From an uncultured Draconibacterium sp. (GTDB lineage: Bacteria > Bacteroidota > Bacteroidia > Bacteroidales > Prolixibacteraceae), in contig NZ_OY776411.1 of assembly GCF_963675585.1 (NCBI RefSeq), forward strand, positions 625,001 through 689,000: a stretch of 64,000 bases of DNA. The letters run 5' to 3'. The notes under the pieces were generated by a model. It worked only from the letters and a program-made list of their open reading frames with translations, did no database searches and was not told where the DNA came from. Within the stretch, counting starts at the first letter, position 1. Each line of letters opens with the position of its first letter. This document shows, piece after piece, positions 23,119 through 38,761 of the stretch. Both the position numbers and the translations under genes were made by a program.

Positions 23119-23263
23119 ATGGAAAACATAAATAATTCGCAACAACATTTATAGCATTTCCTAATCGATTTTTACAAATCTTGAAATAAGACTGAGGTAA
23201 GCGCAAGTTTTCAAAATAGTTGGTGTCATAGTACTATTAGTTCAACATTTAAAACAATTTATT

Positions 23264-24088
23264 ATGAAGAATTCTGGAAAACTTATAATGCTATTCACCG
23301 CATTTACCGTTCTCATATTTTTGTATTCGTGCAACAAAAATGAAGATGTATCCAAAAATAAAATAGCAATTACATCAACCGATGATTACCTGAAAATAGC
23401 GGATGCATTTTCGTTGGCAGCAGAGGAAGAAATTACAACTGACGATGAATCGTTAAAATCGGCATCCCTGTCAAGTTGCCTGACAGTTACAATACACGAA
23501 AATGAAAACGGCGAGTTTTGGCCACGTAGCTGGACACTTGACTATGGTACCGAAAACTGCGAATGCTTCCTGGGAAATATGAAAAGAGGAATGATCCATG
23601 TTAATCTGTCGGATTGGTGGAGAAACGAAGGCTCGGAAAGACAAATAACTTTTGAAGACTTTTACATGAACGACAACAAAATGGAAGGCGTTAAAACCAT
23701 TTTGAACACAGGATTAAATGATGCAGGAAATTTAACTTTCCTGAAAAAAGTGGCAGATGCCAAACTAACAAATCCAGATGGGCTGGTTATGACCTGGGAG
23801 TGTGAAAAAACCAGCGAACAAATTGAAGGAGGAGAAACGCTGCTTTTTGCAGATGACGTGTGGTCTGTTACCGGTTCAGGATCGGGTGTAAATCTTGATG
23901 GGAATTCCTATACTATGGAAATTACATCAGCATTAATATACAAGAACGGATGTTTTTATCCGCTTAGCGGAACAATTGAAATTAAAACCGACGGTGAAAA
24001 CAGCCAGACCATTAACTATGGGGAGGGTGAGTGTGACAAATTAATTACCGTAACAACGGATGGAGTTACAGAAACAGTAGAATTATAA
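23264..24088 (+). CDS. Uncharacterised lipoprotein
   Basis: A 274-residue protein with a signal peptide and a lipobox LYSC (Cys23). The mature part has an acidic linker (EEEITTDDESLKS) and a region rich in beta-strands, with paired cysteines (SSCLTV, ENCECF, WECEK, NGCFYP, EGECDK) that could form disulfides in the periplasm or at the surface. Proteins of this type are common in Bacteroidetes and are annotated as hypothetical. It is followed by a strong terminator, so it ends the transcription unit. Confidence 0.75.
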   Translation: MKNSGKLIMLFTAFTVLIFLYSCNKNEDVSKNKIAITSTDDYLKIADAFSLAAEEEITTDDESLKSASLSSCLTVTIHENENGEFWPRSWTLDYGTENCECFLGNMKRGMIHVNLSDWWRNEGSERQITFEDFYMNDNKMEGVKTILNTGLNDAGNLTFLKKVADAKLTNPDGLVMTWECEKTSEQIEGGETLLFADDVWSVTGSGSGVNLDGNSYTMEITSALIYKNGCFYPLSGTIEIKTDGENSQTINYGEGECDKLITVTTDGVTETVEL

Positions 24089-24264: not shown

Positions 24265-24528
24265 ATGAAAATTACAGATGAAATTAAAATCAGCGATAAT
24301 GGTTTTGTTTTTAATTCACGAACCGGCGACTCGTTTAGTTTAAATCCACTCGGACTTCAATTGTTAAGAGACCTGGAAGCAGGCAAAGATTTTGATGTTA
24401 TAAAAGCAGAGATGCTTGAGCGTTATGACATTGACGATCTTTCGCTAGAAAAAGATTTTTACGAATTTTTTGCACTCTTAAAACACCATCAGATTTTAAC
24501 GCAGGAAGATCCACTTAATTTCCAGTAA
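24265..24528 (+). CDS. PqqD-like peptide-recognition protein (RRE fold)
   Basis: An 87-residue protein with the PqqD family pattern: ISDNGFVFNSRTGDSFSLN, then NPLGLQLLRDLEAGK, a central helix, then a C-terminal helix LEKDFYEFFALLKHHQIL. PqqD-like proteins are winged-helix RiPP recognition elements that hold the leader peptide of a precursor for a modifying enzyme. Here no separate short precursor gene is visible, but the decarboxylase two genes on starts with a leader-like segment. It is the first gene of a seven-gene operon, with 5 bp to the ATP-grasp gene. Role in the pathway is inference. Confidence 0.75.
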   Translation: MKITDEIKISDNGFVFNSRTGDSFSLNPLGLQLLRDLEAGKDFDVIKAEMLERYDIDDLSLEKDFYEFFALLKHHQILTQEDPLNFQ

Positions 24529-24533
24529 ACGGT

Positions 24534-25580
24534 ATGAACAAACAAAAAATAACACTGGCAGTTACCGGTTTAAACAATACTGACAATCCGGGCCCCGGAG
24601 TTCCGGTTATTCGAGGAATTAAAGAATCGGCCGAATTCGATGTACGTATTATTGGCCTGGTATATGAAAACCTCGAGCCGGGAATTTATATGGAAGATTT
24701 ATGCGACCGTATTTTTCAGGTTCCATATCCTTCCGCAGGTTCAAACGAATTAATCGAACGTATTGAAACAATTAATCAACAGGAAAAAATTGATGTATTA
24801 ATTCCCAATCTCGATGCCGAACTATTTTCATTTATGAAAAATGAAGAAAGATTAAAAAATCTGGGAATACATACTTTTTTGCCCAACCTAAAACAGTTTC
24901 AGGAAAGAGATAAAGATAAACTTCAGGAGTTTGGTAAAAAGTACGATGTTAAAGTTCCGGGCAGCTTAAACATGGGAAGTACCAACCAGATTTCCGACCT
25001 GGAAGATAAATTCGATTACCCGATAATGATTAAAGGACAATTTTACGATGCTTATGTAGCTAAAAACAAAGAGCAGGTAAAACAAGCTTTTCACGATATT
25101 TCATCGAAATGGGGATTACCGGTAATTGCCCAGGAATTTGTAAAAGGAACCGAAGTAAATGTAATTGCACTGGGCGATGGCTTAGGCAATACAATTGCGG
25201 CTGTTCCCATGCGAAAACAATACATTACCGATAAAGGAAAAGCCTGGGGAGGAATTACACTTGCCGACGACAAAATGATGGAACTGACTCGTTCAATCAT
25301 TCAAAAAACAAAATGGAAAGGCGGAATGGAGCTTGAGCTAATAAAAAACAGCAAAGGCGAATACTACCTGATTGAAATAAATCCGCGAATACCGGCCTGG
25401 GTTTACCTGGCTGTAGGAGCGGGTCAGAATATACCCGAAGCACTTGTAAAACTGGCTTTGGGACACGAGGTAAAACCAATGACAGAGTACAAAATTGGAA
25501 AAATGTTTGTGCGGTATTCGTACGATGTAATTGTTGACCTTGAAAAATTTGCGGCCATTTCAATGAATAAAGAAATATAA
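24534..25580 (+). CDS. ATP-grasp ligase
   Basis: A 348-residue carbamoyl-phosphate-synthase-like ATP-grasp enzyme. It has an N-terminal Rossmann-like domain (about 1-110), then the ATP-grasp fold with FDYPIMIKGQFYDAYVAKN (nucleotide-binding Lys), QEFVKGTEVNV, and GGMELELIKNSKGEYYLIEINPRIPAW (metal-binding Glu and Asn). Such enzymes join a carboxylate to an amine through an acyl phosphate. It sits between the PqqD-like gene (5 bp) and the decarboxylase gene (13 bp). A likely job is forming an amide on a peptide or amino-acid substrate, but the substrates are unknown. Confidence 0.88.
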   Translation: MNKQKITLAVTGLNNTDNPGPGVPVIRGIKESAEFDVRIIGLVYENLEPGIYMEDLCDRIFQVPYPSAGSNELIERIETINQQEKIDVLIPNLDAELFSFMKNEERLKNLGIHTFLPNLKQFQERDKDKLQEFGKKYDVKVPGSLNMGSTNQISDLEDKFDYPIMIKGQFYDAYVAKNKEQVKQAFHDISSKWGLPVIAQEFVKGTEVNVIALGDGLGNTIAAVPMRKQYITDKGKAWGGITLADDKMMELTRSIIQKTKWKGGMELELIKNSKGEYYLIEINPRIPAWVYLAVGAGQNIPEALVKLALGHEVKPMTEYKIGKMFVRYSYDVIVDLEKFAAISMNKEI

Positions 25581-25593
25581 AACCTGAGATATT

Positions 25594-26934
25594 ATGACAA
25601 AATTAGCATACGAAAAACCGGTTATCAGTAAAATAACTGCCGGTGTTCCCAATAAATTTGGCTTACCCACCAAACAAAAAATCATTTCAGAAATTGATGG
25701 AATTCCTGTTGGAAAAATAATGGAAGAATATGGTTCTCCCGTATTTGTTCTGTCCGAAAAAACCATTCGCGAAACATACGCCGAGGCGAAACAGGCATTC
25801 GAAACGCGTTACCCAAAAGTACAATTTGCCTGGTCGTACAAAACCAATTACCTCGACGCAGTTTGTAGTGTTTTTCACGACGAAGGTGCATGGGCAGAAG
25901 TAGTTTCGGCATTTGAATTCGAAAAAGCACTAACGCTTGGAGTGAACGGTTCAAATATATTATTTAACGGCCCCGAAAAATCGGCCGACGATTTAAAGCT
26001 GGCCATCAATCACAACGCCTGCATACACATCGACCATTTCGACGAATTGTATTTATTAATAAAAGTTACCCGCGAACTCAATAAAAAAGCCAGGGTTGCC
26101 ATCCGTGTTAATCTCGATGCAGGGATTTATCCAATTTGGGATCGCTTTGGATTTAACTACGAAAACGGCGAAGCCTGGAATGCAATAAATCGGATAATGC
26201 TGGCCGATACACTCGATTTTATTGGATTACATACACACATCGGTACGTATATTATGTCGGCAAATGCCTATGCGGTTGCAGCTTCGAAACTGGCCAACTT
26301 GTATGTTGCCACTCACCGTAAATTCGACCACTGGTTAAAATACATTGATTTAGGCGGCGGATTTGCCTCAAAGAATACATTAAAAGGAGCTTATATGCCC
26401 GGCGTTGAAACCTGTCCATCGTTTGATGAATATGCTGAAGCCATATCAAATGCTCTTATTTCTTCTGAGATTCCACATGAAAATCTACCCGTTCTGTTTT
26501 TAGAAACCGGACGTGCTTTGATCGACGACGCCGGTTATTTACTTACAACCGTGCTGGCCAACAAACGCTCAACCAACGGGCGCAGAACAATGGTAATTGA
26601 TGCCGGAGTGAACCTGCTGTTTACAACTTTTTGGTACAACCTGGGTGTTTATCCCACGCGCGAACTTTCGTCGCACGTTGAAGAAAGCACAATTTATGGC
26701 CCGCTTTGTATGAACATCGATGTTATTCGCGATGCCATTAATTTTCCGCAGGTAAAAACCGGCGAACAGCTTGTAATAGAACGGGTAGGTGCATACAACA
26801 TGACACAATGGATGCAATTTATCACTTACCGCCCCAATGTTGTACTGATTGATTTGGATGGTAAAATACATATCGTTCGTAAAAAAGAATCGCTGGAATC
26901 GTTACAGAATTTTGAACTGAACCCAAAAAGATAA
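25594..26934 (+). CDS. PLP-dependent decarboxylase (DAP/ornithine decarboxylase fold) with leader-like N-terminal extension
   Basis: A 446-residue fold-type III enzyme related to diaminopimelate decarboxylase (LysA) and BtrK-like enzymes. It has PLP lysine Lys83 (FAWSYKTNY), HTHIGTY, the glycine loop LGGGFAS, ETGRAL for phosphate binding, YGPLCMNIDVI and ERVGAYNMTQW. The catalytic domain starts near residue 34 (IDGIPVGKIM). The first 33 residues are extra: AYEKPVISKITAG resembles RiPP leader sequences (Y-x2-P-x-I/L motif) that bind PqqD-like proteins. It lies 13 bp after the ATP-grasp gene. It is not an obvious housekeeping LysA, because no other lysine genes are nearby. Confidence 0.88.
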   Translation: MTKLAYEKPVISKITAGVPNKFGLPTKQKIISEIDGIPVGKIMEEYGSPVFVLSEKTIRETYAEAKQAFETRYPKVQFAWSYKTNYLDAVCSVFHDEGAWAEVVSAFEFEKALTLGVNGSNILFNGPEKSADDLKLAINHNACIHIDHFDELYLLIKVTRELNKKARVAIRVNLDAGIYPIWDRFGFNYENGEAWNAINRIMLADTLDFIGLHTHIGTYIMSANAYAVAASKLANLYVATHRKFDHWLKYIDLGGGFASKNTLKGAYMPGVETCPSFDEYAEAISNALISSEIPHENLPVLFLETGRALIDDAGYLLTTVLANKRSTNGRRTMVIDAGVNLLFTTFWYNLGVYPTRELSSHVEESTIYGPLCMNIDVIRDAINFPQVKTGEQLVIERVGAYNMTQWMQFITYRPNVVLIDLDGKIHIVRKKESLESLQNFELNPKR

Positions 26935-26939
26935 TTTGT

Positions 26940-29165
26940 ATGTCGGTACCCACTATAATTAAAAAAGAAATCGTGCAATCGGTTTTAAATTCGTATTCGC
27001 AGATCTTCTTTTCAAGCTCGAAACTGCTTGCTTTCTCTTTAATCATCATTAGTTTTTTTGATTATGGAGCAGGGATTGGTGGTTTGCTTGCTGTTATAGT
27101 GGCAAACTCGTTGGCGTGGGGATTGGGTTACAACAAATACCTTGTTGGCACGGGTTTTTATGGCTACAACGCTTTGCTTGTGGGTTTAGGAATTGGCTTG
27201 TTTTATCAGCCTTCCATCGAAGTTTATGTGCTGATTATTATTGCCGCCATTTTAACCTTTTTTATTACCATCGTATTTCAGGGGGTGCTCGGAAAATATG
27301 GACTGCCGTTTTTAAGTATTCCTTTTTTATTTGGAATATGGATTGTGGCACTCTCGGGAGGTGAACTTTCGGCATTAAACATGAGCGAACGTGGTATTTT
27401 TACTTACAACGAACTCTATTCAATCGGAGGTCAGAATTTCGTGAATTTTTACGATTTCCTTGAAAATAACATTCGGAGCTCGTTTATCCAGATCTATTTT
27501 CGTTCGCTGGGAGCCATCTTTTTCCAAACACATTTGCTGGCAGGAATTATAATTGCAGTTGGCTTACTTTTTTATTCGCGCATTACCTTTGTTTTGTCGC
27601 TTTTAGGGTTTACAACTGCCTATTTGTTTTACAACCTGGTTGGTATCGAGTTCAACTCGCTGGGCTATACTTTTATTGGTTTTAATTACATTTTAACCGC
27701 AATTGCATTGGGTGGTTATTACCTGGTGCCCGGCCGAATCAGTTTTGGCTGGATTATTATTCTGTTGCCTGCGGTTGTATTAATTACAACCAGTACCCAG
27801 CAGATATTTTTACTGTTAAAAGTTTCGGCTTATTCACTGCCTTTTAACATCGTTGTTCTCATGTTTTTATACGCACTCAAATTACGTGAAAAACGTCCGC
27901 GAAAACTTTTGGAAACACCGGTACAGTTAGGAAAACCCGAGAAAAATCTGTACCTATATTCAGGTAATTTAAAACGTTTTCCGGCGGCTTACCCGGTATC
28001 GGCCACTTTGCCTTTTTTTGGCGAATGGACTGTAAGTCAGGGACACAGTGGCGAACATACACACAAGGGTGCATGGAAACACGCCTGGGATTTTGTAGTA
28101 ACCGATCGCAATGGAAAACAGTTTAAAGGTTCGGGCGATTATCACGAAGACTATTTTTGCTTTGGCAAAGCCGTGGTTGCACCATTCGACGGTACCATTA
28201 TTGAAGCGGTAAACCACATTGCGGACAACACAATTGGCGATGTAAATACAAAAGAAAACTGGGGAAATACAGTAATTATTAAACACAACGATTACCTCTA
28301 TGCAAAACTCAGCCATTTAAAATACCACTCGCTCGAAGTAAAAGTGGGAGATGCTGTAAAAAAAGGGCAGCTACTCGGAAGATGCGGAAACACCGGAAGA
28401 TCTCCGTATCCGCATTTGCATTTTCAGTTTCAGGTAACTCCTTACATTGGTTCGGTAACACTCGATTATCCTTTTGGAAACTTTTTGCTAAAAGAACAGA
28501 ACGGGTTTTCGCTTAAGAACTTTGAATTTCCTCAGAAAGACGATATTGTAGTAAATCCTACAAAAAATGATTCGCTTGCCAAAGCACTTCATTTTATTCC
28601 CGGACAACGGTTAAAAGTTGAAGTTGAAGTTGATTCGGAAAGTAAAAAATGGCGAAAAATGGCCGGTGAATATTCGTGGCTGGTGCAAACCGATGTGTAC
28701 AATACAACCTTTATTCAATGCGAAAAAGAAGGTGCTGTTGCCTACCTGCACAACAACAACGAACTTCATTACTTTACCAATTATGTAGGGAAAAAATACT
28801 CTGCTCTTTTTTGGTTTTATACCGTACTTTTTAAAGTGCCTCTTGGATTTTTACCCAACAGTAAAATCAGCGATTCAATCCCGATTAACATGATGTTTGG
28901 CGGCCTCTTAAAAGTGCTGCAAGACTTTGTAGCCCCGCTGTACCTGTTTCTGAACATCGATTACCAGCTGCTGCTGAAAGATGCCGGCGACATTCTATCA
29001 TCGGGAGACATTGAAATGAATGCGGAAATATCAAAACGAATATTTGGCAAGACAGTCAATACTTATGAAGTAGAAATAAAAATTACACCTGAAAATGTGA
29101 TTGAAATTTCTGTGATTTTTAACAAAGCTAAGATTAAAATAAAATGTCAAAACGAATTGGACTAA
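26940..29165 (+). CDS. Urea-transporter-like membrane domain fused to M23 peptidase domain
   Basis: A 741-residue fusion. Residues about 25-315 form roughly ten membrane helices like the SLC14/urea transporter fold, with GTGFYGYNALLVGLGIG and the repeat LGYTFIGFNYILTAIALGG, then SLPFNI. Residues about 355-500 are an M23/LasA-type metallopeptidase with His381 and Asp384 (HAWDF), LSH459 and HLHF (His492, His494), which covers the zinc ligands. A further 240 residues have no recognised fold. It starts 5 bp after the decarboxylase gene and overlaps the next gene by 22 bp. It may move a small product across the membrane and act on peptidoglycan or a peptide. The combination is unusual. Confidence 0.85.
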   Translation: MSVPTIIKKEIVQSVLNSYSQIFFSSSKLLAFSLIIISFFDYGAGIGGLLAVIVANSLAWGLGYNKYLVGTGFYGYNALLVGLGIGLFYQPSIEVYVLIIIAAILTFFITIVFQGVLGKYGLPFLSIPFLFGIWIVALSGGELSALNMSERGIFTYNELYSIGGQNFVNFYDFLENNIRSSFIQIYFRSLGAIFFQTHLLAGIIIAVGLLFYSRITFVLSLLGFTTAYLFYNLVGIEFNSLGYTFIGFNYILTAIALGGYYLVPGRISFGWIIILLPAVVLITTSTQQIFLLLKVSAYSLPFNIVVLMFLYALKLREKRPRKLLETPVQLGKPEKNLYLYSGNLKRFPAAYPVSATLPFFGEWTVSQGHSGEHTHKGAWKHAWDFVVTDRNGKQFKGSGDYHEDYFCFGKAVVAPFDGTIIEAVNHIADNTIGDVNTKENWGNTVIIKHNDYLYAKLSHLKYHSLEVKVGDAVKKGQLLGRCGNTGRSPYPHLHFQFQVTPYIGSVTLDYPFGNFLLKEQNGFSLKNFEFPQKDDIVVNPTKNDSLAKALHFIPGQRLKVEVEVDSESKKWRKMAGEYSWLVQTDVYNTTFIQCEKEGAVAYLHNNNELHYFTNYVGKKYSALFWFYTVLFKVPLGFLPNSKISDSIPINMMFGGLLKVLQDFVAPLYLFLNIDYQLLLKDAGDILSSGDIEMNAEISKRIFGKTVNTYEVEIKITPENVIEISVIFNKAKIKIKCQNELD

Positions 29166-31958: not shown

Positions 31959-32594
31959 TTAATTATTACCAATAATTTCGTCAAATCTTTCCTGGTCCAG
32001 AAACCTGGGAATGTAATTTATGCCTTCATTTGAAAGTGCAAGTACGAATGCCCGCAAGTGATTTTCAGATCCGTCGAGCAAGTTGCCATACACCTGATCG
32101 ATATTTTTCACGTCGGTTAAATCCTTTAATTCCTGAATATCAAGAATATCAGTTTCCTCAATTATAGCGCCAACCACCAATGCAGAATCTAATTCCATAC
32201 TTCCAAGTGCCATTAAAAAATCGTGCAACTGTTGCAATTCTTCATTTTCAAATTCACCAATGTCGTTCCCTAAAGCCGGATCATCGAGGGTGTAAAAATT
32301 AATTAGTCTCAATATTGCATCTGTATGACTTTGTTCACTCTCTGCAATATTTTCAAAAGTGTTGTGAGGAAATAAATCACCCAACTGCAAATACACATCG
32401 CGAGCCAATTTTTCTTCTTCCCGCATAAATACTATTCCTTCAATTTCATCGTCGGAGAGATCAACTTGCGAGCTGGCGTTTCCACTTTTTTCATTTGTTT
32501 CCAATGCCTCGTTAGGAGCAATGTTGGAACACGCTGACACAATGCAATAAAATGCCAGTACGCTAAGGATAAAAAACAGGTTTCTAAATTTCAT
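31959..32594 (-). CDS. DUF2202 ferritin-like lipoprotein (copy 1)
   Basis: A 211-residue protein with a signal peptide and lipobox SAC (Cys22). It holds the DUF2202 helical bundle with the family's blocks: VFMREEEKLARDVY, SEQSHTDA, GAIIEETDILDL and NLLDGSENHLRAF. These Glu and His residues lie as in ferritin-like di-iron proteins, but metal binding is inference. It has 35-45% apparent identity to the two other DUF2202 proteins in this region, by eye. It does not have the ECF promoter motif seen at the other two units. It is convergent with the T9SS gene. Confidence 0.85.
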   Translation of the reverse strand: MKFRNLFFILSVLAFYCIVSACSNIAPNEALETNEKSGNASSQVDLSDDEIEGIVFMREEEKLARDVYLQLGDLFPHNTFENIAESEQSHTDAILRLINFYTLDDPALGNDIGEFENEELQQLHDFLMALGSMELDSALVVGAIIEETDILDIQELKDLTDVKNIDQVYGNLLDGSENHLRAFVLALSNEGINYIPRFLDQERFDEIIGNN

Positions 32595-32840: not shown

Positions 32841-33860
32841 TTATCGAGCGAGTTTAATGTTTGCTTTTTCGAGTAACCAGGTAAGCAAAATTGTAACTGC
32901 AAATATTCCGCTAAACCAGTATATATATGTATTTATACTTTGGGTTTGATAGATGGCAGTTGCAATATTTCCAATTATTAACCACTGTATTACATAAAAC
33001 TGAGTGATGTTTTTTCCCAGCCATTTTAAAAAATTACCAATAATGCTGGTCGGGTATTTTTGCACCAGGAACCGAAGAAAAACAACCCACAATACAATTA
33101 CTGCCATTCCCCACATCGCAAACCAAAATGTGTGATGATAATAATCGGGCAAGTTAATGGTTGTGCGTATTCCCCATTGCCCAAATAACACCACAAAAAA
33201 ACCGGCAACAGCTAAAATTGCTATTCGTATTAATTTGTGCGCTGAATAAAATCGAACAATGGTTTCTTCTGAATAAAAAAAGGCGAAACCAAATAATGGA
33301 TAAGCCAGCCAGGGGAACAAAGGGAAATATGCCCACGAATAAGTTCCAGCTATAAATGGCAAAAGATAACTGCGCTCGGTAACCATCAGAAACGCATTCA
33401 TTGGAGCAGTAAAAATTAAAACCAGAAATGCGAGAACAAACGCAACAAGAGTCTTTCCTCTTTTCAGGCTTTTTAATAAAGCCAAAACAACAATACTAAG
33501 CCCTGCCAGATAAAATATATCAACGCCCCAAATGTATTCCCATGGATTTATTTGCCACCCTGCATATTTTATCTTGATCAACAAATTGGCATTCAGTCCA
33601 ATATTCAGCAACAATCCGAGCACAAAAACCTTAATTCCCCGAATTACATTTTGCCATGGTTTCTTTTTGCTTTTGGCAATAAAATAACCCATTACCATCA
33701 TAAAAACCGGCACACCAACCGGCCCACCCAAAAGAAGCAAAACTTTCCCAAACAGACTTTCTCTTCCCGGATAATCAATAAATGTTTCAATAATATGTAC
33801 CGGAACAATCAGGAAAACTGCAAATCCTTTTAGCAAATCAGGAAGTGGATATCGTTTCAT
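32841..33860 (-). CDS. Multi-span acyltransferase-like membrane protein (HGSNAT/DUF1624-like)
   Basis: A 339-residue membrane protein with about ten helices. It starts YPLPDLLKGFAVFLIVPVHIIETF, the pattern of acyltransferase-3 and heparan-alpha-glucosaminide N-acetyltransferase-type proteins. A conserved His (VHI) in the first helix fits that group. Such proteins move acyl groups to sugars or lipids across the inner membrane. It lies 12 bp after the second DUF2202 gene, in the same unit under an ECF-type promoter. The 246-bp gap after it, toward DUF2202 copy 1, contains nothing I recognise. Confidence 0.65.
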   Translation of the reverse strand: MKRYPLPDLLKGFAVFLIVPVHIIETFIDYPGRESLFGKVLLLLGGPVGVPVFMMVMGYFIAKSKKKPWQNVIRGIKVFVLGLLLNIGLNANLLIKIKYAGWQINPWEYIWGVDIFYLAGLSIVVLALLKSLKRGKTLVAFVLAFLVLIFTAPMNAFLMVTERSYLLPFIAGTYSWAYFPLFPWLAYPLFGFAFFYSEETIVRFYSAHKLIRIAILAVAGFFVVLFGQWGIRTTINLPDYYHHTFWFAMWGMAVIVLWVVFLRFLVQKYPTSIIGNFLKWLGKNITQFYVIQWLIIGNIATAIYQTQSINTYIYWFSGIFAVTILLTWLLEKANIKLAR

Positions 33861-33872
33861 TAAACTAAATTT

Positions 33873-34556
33873 TTAATTGTTAGAGCACCGATTCCTGTTG
33901 CCGCGGTTTCGCATACGTTTTTGTTTGTTGACTTGCTGGTTGTTACAATTGCCTTGCGGAACCACACAATTTCCACGGTTTCCGCATTCAAATTGAGAAT
34001 CGACAATAGTTGCATACACTTCAGAAGACAGAACAACAGGCGTATATTCTCCATACCTGGATGACAATTGCCCTGTAAATGCTCTTAAATGATTTCCCGA
34101 TGCCCGCAATAAATTTCCAAATACCACTGCAATGGTCTCATCCGGATTTAAATCTAACTGCTCCTGTAAATCTTTAATATCAACCTCCTCAATGTAGGCA
34201 CCAACCTCCAGTGCATCCTGCAACGATTTGGCACCTTTGGTAACCAGCGTTTCGTACAATGCAGCAATATCCTGATTTTGAAATTTCCCGGGTTCAGAGA
34301 ATGCGATGTCTTTTACGTCATAAGTTTCAAGTAAATATCCTACGGCATCGAAATGGCGACTTTCGCTATTGGAAATATTCCGAAAAACCGGGAGTTCCCA
34401 TTTTTCATATAGCACCAAATACACATCGTGGGCCAGTTTTTCTTCTTCGCGCATTAGTTGCAAACCTTGTTTTTGTGCATCACTTAATTCATTGCATTCA
34501 ACCAACTTCGGTAGAATTGTAACTGCCATCAGAAAGAAAAAGAATACTGTTTTCAT
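33873..34556 (-). CDS. DUF2202 ferritin-like secreted protein (copy 2)
   Basis: A 227-residue protein. The ATG at 34556 gives a signal peptide (MKTVFFFFLMAVTILPKLVEC). The DUF2202 core has LMREEEKLAHDVYLVL, SESRHFDA, GAYIEEVDIKDL and NLLRASGNHLRAF. The C-terminal 40 residues are unusual: rich in Asn, Gly, Arg and Cys (CGNRGNC, GNC, RMRNRGNRNRC), similar in style to the tail of the protein at 35576. The gene heads a two-gene unit with the acyltransferase-like gene, preceded by the ECF promoter motif at 34687-34712. Confidence 0.85.
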   Translation of the reverse strand: MKTVFFFFLMAVTILPKLVECNELSDAQKQGLQLMREEEKLAHDVYLVLYEKWELPVFRNISNSESRHFDAVGYLLETYDVKDIAFSEPGKFQNQDIAALYETLVTKGAKSLQDALEVGAYIEEVDIKDLQEQLDLNPDETIAVVFGNLLRASGNHLRAFTGQLSSRYGEYTPVVLSSEVYATIVDSQFECGNRGNCVVPQGNCNNQQVNKQKRMRNRGNRNRCSNN

Positions 34557-34686
34557 CTCATTAAAATTATTAGTTTCAATTGTATTCAATGTATCTCGCT
34601 TTGAATTTTAATCCTTCTTTTATGAATTTGTAGAATTAAAACTCATACTCGTTTCATTGGTTAAATCTTTTTGTTTGTTTAAGTAG

Positions 34687-34712
34687 GACACATTTTACAC
34701 AAAAAACTTGCG
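34687..34712 (-). promoter_or_regulatory. ECF-type promoter motif, copy A
   Basis: Reading leftward: CGCAAGTTTTT, nine bases, TGTGTC, then CTA. The same two blocks with the same nine-base gap occur at 37240-37265 and 38736-38761. It would give a leader of about 120 nt before the DUF2202 copy 2 gene. Confidence 0.75.
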
Positions 34713-34740
34713 AATATATGTTCCATAAAGTTATAAAAAC

Positions 34741-34774
34741 AATAACTCCCGAAGAAGAATCTCCGGGAGTTATT
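34741..34774 (-). terminator. Terminator after DUF2202 copy 3
   Basis: AATAACTCCCG and CGGGAGTTATT arms with a 12-nt loop, followed leftward by TGTTTTTAT. It ends the anti-sigma/Spy/DUF2202 unit 31 bp after the stop codon. Confidence 0.85.
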
Positions 34775-34804
34775 TATTGTAGTTTTCTGGTTTTCAAAAA
34801 GATA

Positions 34805-35557
34805 TCAGGCATTAGGCCCGGTTCCGTCGCAAACACCAGTTCCCGGAACGAAGGTATCATCTGTATCCTCAGTATTATCATCTGTATCGTCATCTCCGGC
34901 AATAATTTCGTCGTAGTAATCCTGCGAAATTACAGTTGGTTCATACGCTTCTCCCAAACGGTTCAACGCTGCGGTATACGCTTTTAAATGAAATTTTGAT
35001 CCGCGTAAAAGATTAGCATATACACGTTTAATACTTTCGTTTTCGGTAGTTTCCAGCAAACGTTCCAAATCGGCAATATCATACTCTTCAATAAATGCGC
35101 CTACTTTTAAAGCATCGGCCAAACTGGTACTTCCCTGCTCGGTTAACGAAGCGTATAAAGTTGTAAATAAGTCGTCGTTAAACTCGCCAATTCCTTCCAG
35201 TGCAGGATCAGCCAGGCCAAATCCATCAATCAGATATGCAACTGCTCTTGAATGTGCATCTTCGCTTTTCGAAATGTTGTTGAATACAAAATATTCATAG
35301 GTTTCGTAAAAGTAGATGTAAACATCCCGCGCAAGTTTTTCTTCTTCGCGCATTTCCATTAAACCAACTACCTCTTCTTCGGATAAAACCGCTGAAAAAT
35401 CGCAGGTGTCACCAAAATACTCGACCATTTCCGAACTCTTAACATCGCCTTCAGCAATTAAAGTTTCTTCTACATTTGTTCCCGACTCTGAACAGGCTGC
35501 AAAAAACATTGCCAAACCTGCTACCACTAGCATTGTTACTAATTTTGTTGTTTTCAT
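34805..35557 (-). CDS. DUF2202 ferritin-like lipoprotein (copy 3)
   Basis: A 250-residue lipoprotein with lipobox FAAC (Cys22). The DUF2202 core contains LMEMREEEKLARDVYIYF, SEDAHSRA, GAFIEEYDIADL and NLLRGSKFHLKAY. The C-terminal tail is strongly acidic (DDDTDDNTEDTDD) and ends GTGVCDGTGPNA, a possible cation-binding segment. It is last in the unit started by the anti-sigma gene, 18 bp after the Arg/Asn-rich Spy-like gene. It likely takes part in an envelope stress or metal response. The biochemical role is unknown. Confidence 0.87.
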   Translation of the reverse strand: MKTTKLVTMLVVAGLAMFFAACSESGTNVEETLIAEGDVKSSEMVEYFGDTCDFSAVLSEEEVVGLMEMREEEKLARDVYIYFYETYEYFVFNNISKSEDAHSRAVAYLIDGFGLADPALEGIGEFNDDLFTTLYASLTEQGSTSLADALKVGAFIEEYDIADLERLLETTENESIKRVYANLLRGSKFHLKAYTAALNRLGEAYEPTVISQDYYDEIIAGDDDTDDNTEDTDDTFVPGTGVCDGTGPNA

Positions 35558-35575
35558 TTTCTTTCTAATTACTAT

Positions 35576-36163
35576 TTATGAATTAAATCTGCATCTGTTA
35601 TTCTGATTTCCACGAAAATTTCCGTTGTTTCTGTTTCCGTTTCCACCTCTTTGTATGCAATTGTTTCCTCTCTGACCATTTTGACCGGCAGCAACATTAT
35701 TCCCGTTTCCGCGGCAACCAACACAATTTTGCCGGCCATAATTTCCTGCTGAATTTCTACCCCGGTTGTTTTGAGCATACCGTTGATTTTTGTACAAGCC
35801 TCCGTTGTTTTGCAGCTGCTCGTATTCAGCCTTCTGATCTGCAGTCAGCAAACCTTTTACATCGTTCTGATGGGTTTGTACCTGTTTTAACATTTCAGTT
35901 CTGATTTCACTTTTTTCTACTGCATCAATGGTGGATCGACGTTGGGTTCTTAACTCTTCCATTGTTTCCCGGTGACCGGCTTCCAGTTTTTCAATTTCCG
36001 TTACCTGCTGATCGCTAAGGTTTGAAATTTGAGTTACACAGGGTAAATTTTGATTGTCTTGAATCCTGTTTACGTTTCTCCTTCCTTGTGCATAAACGCT
36101 TGTTGTTGTTACAATTAGGGCAAAAAACACCCAGAACAACTTTTGTAAGTTACTCGTTTTCAT
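35576..36163 (-). CDS. Spy/LTXXQ-like periplasmic protein with Asn/Gly/Arg-rich tail
   Basis: A 195-residue exported protein with a signal peptide (cleaved near ...VYAQ, residue 26). Residues about 45-115 are helical and charged (SDQQVTEIEKLEAGHRETMEELR discontinuous; LTADQKAEYEQL), matching the LTXXQ/Spy chaperone type. The last 75 residues are low-complexity, rich in Asn, Gly, Arg and Gln with four Cys (NCVGC, NC, RC). Spy/CpxP-type proteins sense or buffer unfolded protein or metal in the periplasm. It lies 77 bp after the first Spy-like gene and 18 bp before DUF2202 copy 3. Confidence 0.75.
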   Translation of the reverse strand: MKTSNLQKLFWVFFALIVTTTSVYAQGRRNVNRIQDNQNLPCVTQISNLSDQQVTEIEKLEAGHRETMEELRTQRRSTIDAVEKSEIRTEMLKQVQTHQNDVKGLLTADQKAEYEQLQNNGGLYKNQRYAQNNRGRNSAGNYGRQNCVGCRGNGNNVAAGQNGQRGNNCIQRGGNGNRNNGNFRGNQNNRCRFNS

Positions 36164-36240
36164 GATATTAACTTTTAATGATTTTGTTTTACTCTTTTAC
36201 TGCAGAGTTTTATTAAAGATTTTAATTCGTGTAAATATTT

Positions 36241-36777
36241 CTAATTTCTGGGGCCACCCCCTCCTCTAAATCCTCTCCCTCGTTTGGGAAGTGAAACATC
36301 TTCTTTTGCTTTCGACACAGTAAGAAAAATCTCTTTTAGTTTTTTCTGCTGCACCGAGTCGCACACATCTTTCATTCCGAGGTAATACGAAACAGTTAAT
36401 TGTTTTAACTCTGAATGATTTTGTCCAATTTTTTCAGCTATCGAATTTAAAACCTGCTGCGATGGTTCTTCTTTGGCCATTTCGGAAACCATTTGCACGC
36501 GTAGGTTTTCCAGCTGATTTGAGATAAGTCGCGCGTTGCGGTTGTACTCTCGGTTTAAATCTCTGAACTGATCTACCTGGGTAAGGCTTAAATCCAGCTC
36601 ATCGCGGAAAAAGCGGGTTCGCTGTTCGGATGGCATAACCGTTTGCTCGCTGGTGGTTTCCACCTCCTTTTTATCCTGTTGTTTATGGTACCAAAACGAC
36701 AGTGCCATCGACAAATTGGTAGCCACCAGTATTACAATTACCCAAATAAGTATGCGATATGTATTTCTATTTGCCAT
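36241..36777 (-). CDS. Membrane-anchored Spy/CpxP-like (heavy-metal resistance type) protein
   Basis: A 178-residue protein with one N-terminal membrane helix (about 8-29) and a helical periplasmic part. LDLSLTQVDQFRDL is the LTxxQ-type motif, followed by a long amphipathic helix pair. The tail PKRGRGFRGGGGPRN is Gly/Arg-rich. It resembles CnrX/Spy/zinc-resistance proteins that sense periplasmic stress and act next to sigma/anti-sigma pairs. Its ATG is 3 bp after the anti-sigma stop. It may be the sensor that controls the anti-sigma factor. Confidence 0.75.
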   Translation of the reverse strand: MANRNTYRILIWVIVILVATNLSMALSFWYHKQQDKKEVETTSEQTVMPSEQRTRFFRDELDLSLTQVDQFRDLNREYNRNARLISNQLENLRVQMVSEMAKEEPSQQVLNSIAEKIGQNHSELKQLTVSYYLGMKDVCDSVQQKKLKEIFLTVSKAKEDVSLPKRGRGFRGGGGPRN

Positions 36778-36780
36778 GGT

Positions 36781-37218
36781 TTATTTTAATAAAAAAGATT
36801 CGATCGGTTCTGAATCCATTCCATTCCAGAACGGGATCATTTCATCGTCTGATAAAACACTGGTTTCCTGAACGGGACTGCCCACATTTCCCATTTTTAT
36901 ACCACCATAAATACCAAGTAACAACAACACAGAAAATGCAACAGGCTGTAATAAGCGTATCAAAATTGGTCTTGCAACCTGTATTCTTTCTGCTTCTTCC
37001 TGGTTTTCGAGTTTTGCTTTTATACGGGTATATAAAAATGGATTATTCTCTGTCGCTTTTTCAGTTTCTAAAATACTGAGCGTTTTTTTCATTTCTTCGG
37101 CAAAAAGAGCACAATCCGGACAAGTGTCAAGATGTTCCTGCACCTGTTTCATTTCTAAAACCGGCAGCTCTTTTTCAAGAAAGAAAATTAAATTGTTATG
37201 TACTGTTTTACATTTCAT
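36781..37218 (-). CDS. Zinc-finger anti-sigma factor
   Basis: A 145-residue protein. The N-terminal cytoplasmic part has the ZAS motif HLDTCPDC (H-x3-C-x2-C) after a first Cys/His segment (CKTVHNN). A single membrane helix (about 85-103) leads to a short periplasmic tail. This layout is the standard anti-sigma partner of ECF factors. It lies 48 bp downstream of the sigma gene, and an ECF promoter motif fills that gap, so it can be expressed apart from sigma. Confidence 0.88.
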   Translation of the reverse strand: MKCKTVHNNLIFFLEKELPVLEMKQVQEHLDTCPDCALFAEEMKKTLSILETEKATENNPFLYTRIKAKLENQEEAERIQVARPILIRLLQPVAFSVLLLLGIYGGIKMGNVGSPVQETSVLSDDEMIPFWNGMDSEPIESFLLK

Positions 37219-37239
37219 TGTTTCAGTATTTATTTATAT

Positions 37240-37265
37240 GACACATTCATTATTAAAAACTTGCG
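37240..37265 (-). promoter_or_regulatory. ECF-type promoter motif, copy B
   Basis: CGCAAGTTTTT, nine bases, TGTGTC, then ATA, reading leftward. It abuts the sigma gene's stop codon (37267-37269) and drives the anti-sigma, Spy-like and DUF2202 copy 3 genes, with a leader of about 14 nt. Confidence 0.78.
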
Positions 37266-37266
37266 C

Positions 37267-37848
37267 TTACATGCACTTTTTTTTGTAACAACTATACAAT
37301 TTCTTTTGCAGCCCTTTTTTAGCACGAAAAAGCAAGGATTCCACCGACGATACCGAGAGCTCCATAATTTCTGCAATTTCCTGATACGAGAGTTCTTCGT
37401 ATTTACTTAAAGTAAAAGCTACTTGCTGATTTTTGGGCAAACTTCCAATGGCTTCGTGCAAAATAAGTGCCCGTTGTTTGTTTTCCAATTCAAACTCCGG
37501 ATGGTCTGATTTTGAAGTAGCCAGTTGTTGCAGCTTTTTACTTTTCTCAGTTACTTCATCTTCAAACGATTGAAACCATTTTTGCTTTTTATTATCGCGA
37601 ATATGGTTTAACGACCGGTTTACAGCAATACGATACAACCAGGTTGATAGTTTCGACTCGGCTCTAAAGCGATCAATGTTCCGAAAAACCTCAATAAACA
37701 CTTCCTGCGCAATGTCTTCAGCATCTTCCCGGTTATGAACCAAACCAAAACAGGTATTCACTACCAGTTTCTGATGTGTTTCAACCAGCTTTCGAAATGC
37801 CTGCTCATTGCCTTCCTGTAACTGTTTTATGATCTCGGTATCCGACAT
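37267..37848 (-). CDS. ECF-type RNA polymerase sigma factor
   Basis: A 193-residue sigma-70 family protein. Region 2 includes DAEDIAQEVFIEVFRNIDRFRAESKLSTWLYRIAVNR (split; -10 recognition and core binding), and region 4 includes ALPKNQQVAFTLSKYEELSYQEIAEIMELSVSSVESLLFRAKKGLQKKL as discontinuous conserved blocks (-35 recognition). The C-terminus ends CYKKKCM. It is 39 bp after the DUF4405 gene and should be made from the same promoter (38736-38761), which has the putative recognition motif of this factor. That implies a positive loop held by the anti-sigma factor. Confidence 0.93.
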   Translation of the reverse strand: MSDTEIIKQLQEGNEQAFRKLVETHQKLVVNTCFGLVHNREDAEDIAQEVFIEVFRNIDRFRAESKLSTWLYRIAVNRSLNHIRDNKKQKWFQSFEDEVTEKSKKLQQLATSKSDHPEFELENKQRALILHEAIGSLPKNQQVAFTLSKYEELSYQEIAEIMELSVSSVESLLFRAKKGLQKKLYSCYKKKCM

Positions 37849-37887
37849 TTATCAACGAAAATTAACACAATAGATTTGGATTGGGAA

Positions 37888-38703
37888 CTATTCAGAAAAT
37901 AACTTATAAACATCTCGCGGAGGAAGATTATTGTTTTCACCAATGGTACGCAAGGTTTCTTTTGCCTGCGCTTTAATGTTGTTCTCGTGCAGAATTGCCA
38001 AAATCTCATCAACACTTTTATCCAGTTCTGCGGCAAAATCTTCCACAGTTTTCCGGCCAATTCCCGAACCCTGTTTCTGATTAGCTGCCTGTTTCGAAAT
38101 TATTTCGTAAATAGCCAATGGTGTTGTATTATTTAACTTTGCAATATCTTGTAAAGTTTGACTGTTGGTATTATCAAAGTTAATTTCATGAATTTTCAAT
38201 TTTCGTGTAATTTCGTCTACCGACGTTAAATGCATCTGTTCGGCAAGTTCGGTTAAAGTCAATTGCTCAGCATGAGGAACGGGAGCACGTTCTTCCACCT
38301 TTTCCCACGACTCGGTAAAATGTTCGCCCAAATCCATCACACTTTTAAAGGGAGGAACAGAAAAAACTGTCCCGAAAAAGATGAGCAGAACCAATACAGT
38401 GGCACCAATAAACTCTCGCTTTTTATTGAATTTTGCGGCCGATTTTGACTTAAAATACCAAACAAATGCTCTCCAGTTTATCCATATTAAATGCAAAGCC
38501 GAAAGCACAATAAAACCCAACGAAAAAAGTGTATGAATGGCTTGCCACTCTTCTTTTGTAAATCCCCAGATTGTCCAGTTTACCCAGTGTGCGTATCGTC
38601 CCGGAGGCGAAACGTACAACATAATTCCGGAAATCAATAGTACAATCATGGCATAGGTTAAGCCAAATGAGATAAATGCGCGCCAACTAAATTTGTTTTT
38701 CAT
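37888..38703 (-). CDS. DUF4405 membrane protein with duplicated C-terminal helical module
   Basis: A 271-residue protein. Three or four membrane helices (about 8-115) contain spaced His residues (RYAHW, WQAIHTLF, LSALHLIW) as in cytochrome-b561-like DUF4405 proteins, so heme binding is possible. The C-terminal half (about 145-271) holds two similar modules of about 50 residues. Each has a first helix (LTELAEQMHL; VEDFAAELDK), VDEI, then a helix with L..I...N..P..IY (ALNNTTPLAIYEII-like; GENNNLPPRDVYKLF). The gene heads the sigma-factor unit behind ECF motif copy C. Confidence 0.75.
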   Translation of the reverse strand: MKNKFSWRAFISFGLTYAMIVLLISGIMLYVSPPGRYAHWVNWTIWGFTKEEWQAIHTLFSLGFIVLSALHLIWINWRAFVWYFKSKSAAKFNKKREFIGATVLVLLIFFGTVFSVPPFKSVMDLGEHFTESWEKVEERAPVPHAEQLTLTELAEQMHLTSVDEITRKLKIHEINFDNTNSQTLQDIAKLNNTTPLAIYEIISKQAANQKQGSGIGRKTVEDFAAELDKSVDEILAILHENNIKAQAKETLRTIGENNNLPPRDVYKLFSE

Positions 38704-38735
38704 TTTAGTGAATTATTGTTTTTAATCATCAATAA

Positions 38736-38761
38736 GACACAGTGCAAATAAAAAACTTGCG
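38736..38761 (-). promoter_or_regulatory. ECF-type promoter motif, copy C
   Basis: CGCAAGTTTTT, nine bases, TGTGTC, then TTA, reading leftward, 33 bp before the DUF4405 start. It is identical in both blocks and gap length to copies A and B. Confidence 0.78.

Follow-up and report, generated by a model that had tools for sequence, protein, structure and literature searches.

We analysed a 64,000-nucleotide stretch of the genome of an uncultured Draconibacterium species (contig NZ_OY776411.1, positions 625,001 to 689,000; referred to here as the window), in which a gene for an extracytoplasmic function (ECF) sigma factor is flanked by copies of a two-block motif that is very probably the promoter this sigma factor recognizes. 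The genes concerned lie in a row on the minus strand. First comes a DUF4405 membrane protein with a C-terminal region that by eye is rich in repeats (37888-38703; PF14358, E = 4e-14), followed by the sigma factor (37267-37848; 193 amino acids (aa), with Asn81 in region 2.4; PF04542, 8.5e-21; PF08281, 1.9e-18), an anti-sigma factor with, by eye, one apparent membrane helix and a short C-terminal tail (36781-37218; zf-HC2, PF13490, 1.8e-7), a Spy/CnrX-superfamily protein with a long N-terminal helix like a membrane anchor (36241-36777; PF13801, 25.9 bits, below the 29.2 cut-off) and a second, LTXXQ-type Spy-like protein that by eye appears to be secreted (35576-36163; PF07813, 8.2e-5 and 23.7 bits, below the 24.3 cut-off). 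Beyond these are two DUF2202 proteins, copy 1 (34805-35557; PF09968, 1.2e-47) and copy 2 (33873-34556; PF09968, 1.9e-47), and an acyltransferase-like membrane protein (32841-33860; PF01757, 5.3e-20). For DUF2202 copy 2, the ATG at 34556 is by eye a more likely start than the TTG at 34589 that begins the longest open reading frame (ORF).

The sigma factor belongs to the ECF group (group IV of the sigma-70 proteins): it matches PF04542 at 21-88 and PF08281 at 129-178, has no other sigma regions and scores 120.6 bits against TIGR02937 (cut-off 42.9). It falls short of the Bacteroides expansion sigma family TIGR02985, scoring 118.6 bits where the cut-off is 126.4. The product of the adjoining gene is a zinc-finger anti-sigma factor (ZAS, class I) that carries HLDTCPDC (H-x3-C-x2-C) within its PF13490 match (31.5 bits, cut-off 22.2). 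In the DUF4405 protein, three membrane helices can be made out by eye ahead of the repeat region, and the C-terminal part seems to contain several short helical repeats, with IF2_N and HTH_Mga matches below their cut-offs.

An initial annotation of the window had described three identical copies of the motif on the minus strand, with flanks that differ. We found CGCAAGTTTTT-N9-TGTGTC-N-TA without a single mismatch at all three places, namely before the DUF4405-sigma unit (P1, 38733-38761), before the anti-sigma gene (P2, 37237-37265) and before the genes for the second DUF2202 protein and the acyltransferase (P3, 34684-34712), and the spacers as well as the flanks of these copies are unlike each other. 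The annotation had missed a fourth site with two mismatches, P4, at 23202-23230 on the plus strand before a lipoprotein-PqqD cluster. With up to three mismatches allowed, the window thus holds 4 matches, against a mean of 0.04 and a maximum of 1 in 100 dinucleotide shuffles. The scan of the whole genome (6,032,436 bases) that the annotation had proposed as a check returned the exact pattern only at the three places of the sigma locus. Matches with up to three mismatches number 6 in the genome and 4 for the reversed control (not split by mismatch number), so that those with three mismatches say little.

Taking the conserved C of GTGTC as position -10, transcription is predicted to start at about 38726 (P1), 37230 (P2), 34677 (P3) and 23237 (P4), the first three being near the 38728, 37232 and 34678 of the initial annotation. 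P1 lies 29 bases from the DUF4405 start. P2 is separated from the sigma stop codon by one base, and its predicted start would leave a 12-nt leader before the anti-sigma ATG. P2 occupies the roughly 50-nt gap separating the two genes, so that coding constraint does not explain its conservation. Upstream of P3, between it and DUF2202 copy 1, a terminator-like hairpin of 15 pairs is followed by a T-run (34741-34774, minus strand). It has the longest stem among the terminator-like sites listed for the region, although the six such sites do not exceed the shuffled mean of 7.0 and their counts alone lend no support.

We compared the window with 29 loci of the same genus; at E ≤ 1e-25, a search with the sigma factor was positive for 41 of 61 genomes, weaker paralogue matches counted in. 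The 60 P1 and P2 sites of these 30 loci refine the element: GTGTC and the final A are present in 60/60 and CAAG is nearly invariant, while any base can precede GTGTC (T 27, C 16, G 12, A 5) and the T-run is less strict at its last T (44/60). The claim that all 17 bases are fixed, true of the three window copies, was therefore overstated with respect to the first T of TGTGTC and the end of the T-run. When the base before GTGTC is left free, both P1 and P2 are found with 0-3 mismatches in 30/30 loci (0, 1, 2 and 3 mismatches in 10, 16, 3 and 1 loci for P1 and in 20, 3, 2 and 5 for P2), with P2 at +573 to +584 relative to the start of the sigma gene. The reversed pattern reaches a minimum of 5 mismatches (P1) and 7 (P2) in the same stretches. 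DUF4405 lies upstream of the sigma gene in 27 of the 30; it was not found in L061, L062 and L065, where a P1-type site stands 57-154 nt before the sigma gene. Ten same-genus loci have matches best named D2202b, and nine of these have a site within 125 nt upstream (0 mismatches in the window, 3 in the other eight); at the tenth, L060, there is no site within that distance.

The core GCAAGTTTT-N11-GTGTCnnA has 47 matches in 20 of 37 genomes, compared with none for the reversed control, and is present in 19/23 same-genus genomes versus 1/14 others. That single outsider, G046, encodes a sigma factor 51% identical to ours, with sites before the sigma gene and after its stop. Among the same-genus genomes that lack the exact core, G015 and G022 do have the sigma gene, accompanied by sites that carry mismatches; no orthologue was matched in G001 (86% complete) or G016. 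Nor was an orthologous sigma matched in G014 (70% complete) and G018, each of which has a core site, but this is explicable by incompleteness or a contig end: in G018 the locus breaks off within DUF4405, 641 bases past the point where the site region starts to match. Judged from these genomes, the presence of the motif largely tracks that of the sigma orthologue.

The genome of the window contains a fifth exact core site, on contig C4, which lies 146 bp upstream of the gene for a 413-aa outer-membrane-efflux-like protein and may be a chance occurrence. On contig C3 the same 28-bp near-match recurs at four places, suggesting a repeated element. In two same-genus genomes a shared core site is found about 100 nt before similar-looking 129-aa ORFs, which are possible further members of the regulon.

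P4 is also conserved. It stands 33 nt before the ATG of a lipoprotein-like gene (23264-24088, plus strand); for the orthologues of this gene in G011, G019 and G022 the distance from site to ATG is 44-45 nt, and the sites have 0, 1 and 3 mismatches, respectively. On the same strand follow genes for an 87-aa PqqD-like protein (24265-24528; PF05402, 9.9e-7), an ATP-grasp ligase-like protein (24534-25580; PF15632, 1.3e-10) and a pyridoxal-phosphate-dependent decarboxylase of the diaminopimelate/ornithine type (25594-26934; PF02784, 3.2e-30), and their spacing suggests that a transcription unit would extend from the lipoprotein gene to the decarboxylase gene. A site with 0-3 mismatches precedes PqqD in 15/15 same-genus loci (window included; counted without a shuffled control) versus 0/6 outside the genus, directly in 11 of the 15 and before an intervening lipoprotein gene in 4, which points to one transcription unit. 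Of the loci read, several (L092, L102, L106) have an ATP-grasp gene 3' of the PqqD gene.

Beyond the genus, we sampled sigma homologues by class, phylum and order, with matches in 37/395, 123/395 and 58/298 genomes. The loci used were those returned by the searches plus 60 regions picked to spread over families, rather than every match, together with 80 relatives from named genomes, the best of 520 (among them Prolixibacteraceae, Flavobacteriaceae, Chitinophagaceae, Chlorobium and KSB1). This gave 253 loci with distinct sigma C-terminal sequences, 29 from the genus and 224 from elsewhere, the latter including a paralogue of the window's own genome. With at most one mismatch, the nine-base -35 element GCAAGTTTT occurs at the sigma stop (-20 to +60) in 101 of the 224, before the sigma gene in 47 and at both places in 25, whereas permuted 9-mers give means of 1.6 (maximum 14), 3.5 and 0.04. 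The exact element is at the stop in 57/224 loci (permuted mean 0.06, maximum 4). Adding the requirement for TC at the fixed spacing leaves 95 loci with a site at the stop, 43 with one before the sigma gene and 23 with both, so that 115/224 have at least one site. Within this sample, whose homologues need not all be orthologues, a promoter-like site at the sigma stop codon is thus common but not universal.

The -10 block varies among these other loci, and it does so in step with the sigma factor. We called sites by the -35 element and position and read the -10 block at the fixed spacing, needing only its last two bases, TC. In the discovery set of 182 loci (30 from the genus), a -35 element was called in 109, and TC was also present in 99 of these. 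The base at -13 holds 0.85 bits in 74 loci (the window, two genus members and all others); the sigma column of N81 carries 0.78 and the next column 0.51. Pairs of residue 81 and the -13 base across the 99 loci are Asn-T (41), Asp-C (48), Glu-C (8), Met-C (1) and Asn-A (1, L216), so that a rule pairing Asn with T and any other residue with C fits 98/99 loci, or 73/74 with the genus reduced to three members. On a tree from which column 81 was left out, each label and the joint label change seven times by Fitch parsimony, against a mean of 33 for shuffled labels; six of the seven changes obey the rule and the seventh is L216, with modest support at several places in the tree. A further set, taken from the best 80 of 520, comprised 71 loci not identical to earlier ones, 51 of them with a -35 call. 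Of 49 that could be scored 47 fit the rule, although this set shares families with the first and is not fully independent of it. An acidic side chain might contact the amino group of the C at -13. We claim no rule for the -12 and -14 bases, for which no single sigma column dominates. According to PMC8103513 and PMC11588781, the work of Todor et al. 2020 has ECF specificity set by a few residue-base pairs, and about 55% of ECFs are autoregulated.

Several observations weigh against reading the motif as the promoter of this sigma factor. At up to one mismatch, the 13-base core and its reversed control each have 12 matches in the genome of this sigma factor, and because of this parity weaker targets cannot be listed and our attempt at a genome-wide list of further targets failed. 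Random windows of the same-genus loci, which were not cleared of other regulon sites, hold a match with 0-3 mismatches in 19/474 cases at 1080 bp and 1/474 at 80 bp. Neither place has a site with TC in 109/224 of the loci outside the genus, and in the discovery set 73/182 loci lack a -35 call and 10 more lack TC at the spacing. The covariation has exceptions: besides L216, L314 combines Asn with ACGTC after the sigma stop but GTGTC before the sigma gene, L373 has Gly with GTATC, and the second site of L361, GTATC with Glu, also breaks the rule. Where a locus has both sites the -13 base is the same in 21/23, L314 and L361 being the two that differ. Finally, G016, which is 99% complete, has no orthologous sigma match and yet keeps a 3-mismatch site before its PqqD gene.

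The last case would fit a reading in which another ECF sigma factor of the genome recognizes the motif and the local one merely lies nearby, and the genome does offer other sigma genes: 67 candidates at first look, and three matches at E ≤ 1e-25, this sigma included. However, the sites flank this sigma gene in 30/30 same-genus loci and are found again at the stop codon of sigma genes from outside the genus, genomes without the orthologue are mostly without the motif (the cores of G014 and G018 being explicable), and the identity of the -13 base follows residue 81 of this very protein. We therefore regard recognition by another sigma factor as highly unlikely. Still less probable, in our estimate, is that the motif is the operator of a classical repressor or activator, with the housekeeping sigma factor transcribing the genes. 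A regulator site, too, could stand in three identical copies before related units, but the motif consists of two conserved blocks at a fixed spacing, is by eye not palindromic, has an ECF-like layout and varies in its -10 block in step with a sigma residue. The idea that the copies are alike because functionless intergenic DNA was recently duplicated at this locus deserves least credence of all, for although three perfect copies lie within 4.1 kb, their flanks and spacers differ, P1 and P2 are kept at their own places in 29 other loci and the fourth site is conserved elsewhere, so that conservation already contradicts it.

We thus favour ECF-recognized promoters with autoregulation, as the initial annotation had proposed. 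That proposal was right in kind and too narrow in extent, and it is supported by the position of the sites, their conservation in 30/30 same-genus loci, their co-occurrence with the sigma orthologue and the covariation of -13 with residue 81 of region 2.4. Computation establishes the sites, their conservation and, through covariation, their link to this sigma factor; what follows about transcription, the extents of the operons and the signal we infer from them. The local sigma factor would read the -35 element GCAAGTTTT(T) and, at a fixed spacing, the -10 element GTGTC. A periplasmic or envelope signal would lead the membrane-bound anti-sigma factor to free the sigma factor, which would transcribe its own DUF4405-sigma unit from P1. 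Transcription from P2 would supply the anti-sigma factor, the Spy/CnrX-fold protein, the secreted Spy-like protein and a DUF2202 protein, that from P3 the second DUF2202 protein and the acyltransferase, and that from P4 the lipoprotein-PqqD-ATP-grasp-decarboxylase cluster. Lying between the sigma and anti-sigma genes, P2 might add extra anti-sigma factor as a brake. The annotated regulon, made up of a DUF4405 protein, sigma and anti-sigma factors, two Spy-like proteins, two DUF2202 proteins and an acyltransferase-like protein, has to be revised: it lacked the cluster behind P4, a third DUF2202 gene without its own site lies downstream, and the first 'Spy-like' protein is probably a sensor subunit.

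The sensor interpretation concerns the protein encoded at 36241-36777. The family profile, drawn from the 42 second-ORF proteins described below, matches Spy, VirG-like, NccX and CnrX chains. The predicted structure (pLDDT 86.9) has helices at 4-42, 50-61, 65-100, 107-138 and 141-156, and the top Foldseek matches of this model are ZraP and CnrX at E values of 0.03-0.1, with TMt of 0.74-0.82 for the first CnrX chains and 0/538 matches at E ≤ 0.001. Given the predicted CnrX/ZraP-like fold and the N-terminal helix that by eye resembles a membrane anchor, the protein is more likely a periplasmic sensor that holds or releases the anti-sigma factor than an effector. We considered and dropped a metal-sensor reading by direct homology to CnrX. 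The positions that the profile aligns with the NccX histidines, which we take to be the CnrX metal ligands, are by eye not His in the window protein, so that a metal signal is not supported; some other family members have His at the last of these positions.

SigR-RsrA and RpoE-RseA are examples of regulons with an autoregulated ECF sigma factor and a class I zinc-finger anti-sigma factor. As in these, the sigma factor here has regions 2 and 4 only and putative bipartite promoters before its own operon with a C in the -10 element, and the adjacent anti-sigma factor carries H-x3-C-x2-C as RsrA-type proteins do. A difference is the conserved promoter-like site that separates the sigma gene here from the anti-sigma gene. 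With CnrYXH/NccYXH of Cupriavidus metallidurans the locus shares the clustering of a sigma factor, an anti-sigma factor and a protein of predicted CnrX-like fold with an apparent anchor. It differs from CnrX in the presumed ligand positions just described and from cnrYXH in gene order. The anti-sigma factor here has a zinc finger, whereas PMC7406223 calls CnrY class II, and the -35 element GCAAGTTTT contrasts with GGAACTT, the sequence that PMC8103513 gives for E. coli RpoE. The system is a well-supported new example of an already known type. A well-bounded example is useful because, according to PMC7406223, class I anti-sigma domains accompany just 6% of the ECFs of Bacteroidetes.

The gene order after the sigma gene extends to relatives. 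Among 48 of the best 80 of 520 named loci, the first following ORF has 90-170 aa in 45 and the second 140-220 aa in 42. First-ORF proteins (those 45 and the window's) match zf-HC2 in 14/46 cases, and second-ORF proteins (41 and the window's, L339 left out) match Metal_resist in 28/42 and LTXXQ in 18/42 at E ≤ 0.01. It is an evenly balanced question whether many Bacteroidota share a three-part ECF system of sigma factor, anti-sigma factor and CnrX-fold sensor without the CnrX metal site, in which a sigma-dependent promoter at the sigma stop would make the anti-sigma factor and sensor exceed the sigma factor. In such a system residue 81 (Asn, Asp, Glu) and the -13 base (T, C) would change in pairs as the promoter code drifts, and in this genus DUF2202 and PqqD/ATP-grasp functions would have been captured. 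If true, this drift would offer a natural series for studying how sigma factors and promoters coevolve. The loci also supply natural sigma-promoter pairs with a joint change of one residue and one base, on which specificity and the role of a promoter between the sigma and anti-sigma genes are directly testable. The locus also provides a candidate regulon for gene families without known function (DUF2202, DUF4405). The papers searched do not mention DUF2202. Judged by the listings, the only match for DUF4405 with 'sigma factor' concerns tetrachloroethene respiration, and searches on Draconibacterium sigma factors, Spy/CpxP with Flavobacteria anti-sigma factors and Chlorobium sigma/anti-sigma factors gave nothing on this system.

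Downstream of the acyltransferase gene lies a third DUF2202 gene (31959-32594, minus strand; PF09968, 5.6e-48), with no motif upstream at up to three mismatches. Its product is homologous to the solved MJ0754 (2.6e-41), and weak Pfam matches of DUF2202 to MiaE and PaaA_PaaC agree with the ferritin-like fold that this family presumably has. The paralogue from the window's own genome mentioned above (L071, start 8001) is 39% identical to the sigma factor and has no motif site; the stretch 3' of its gene weakly matches the Spy/CnrX-like protein. A homologue from candidate division KSB1 (L379) has Asn at position 81, with a GTGTC site beyond the stop codon of its gene. The best NCBIfam models for the decarboxylase behind P4 are N-citrylornithine and diaminopimelate decarboxylases, both below cut-off, and together with the PqqD-like and ATP-grasp proteins (24265-26934) it may belong to a small-molecule or peptide pathway. 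Five nt after the decarboxylase gene begins a gene for a 741-aa protein (26940-29165, plus strand) in which a urea-transporter domain (PF03253, 5.9e-52) is fused to an M23 peptidase (PF01551, 9.5e-17).

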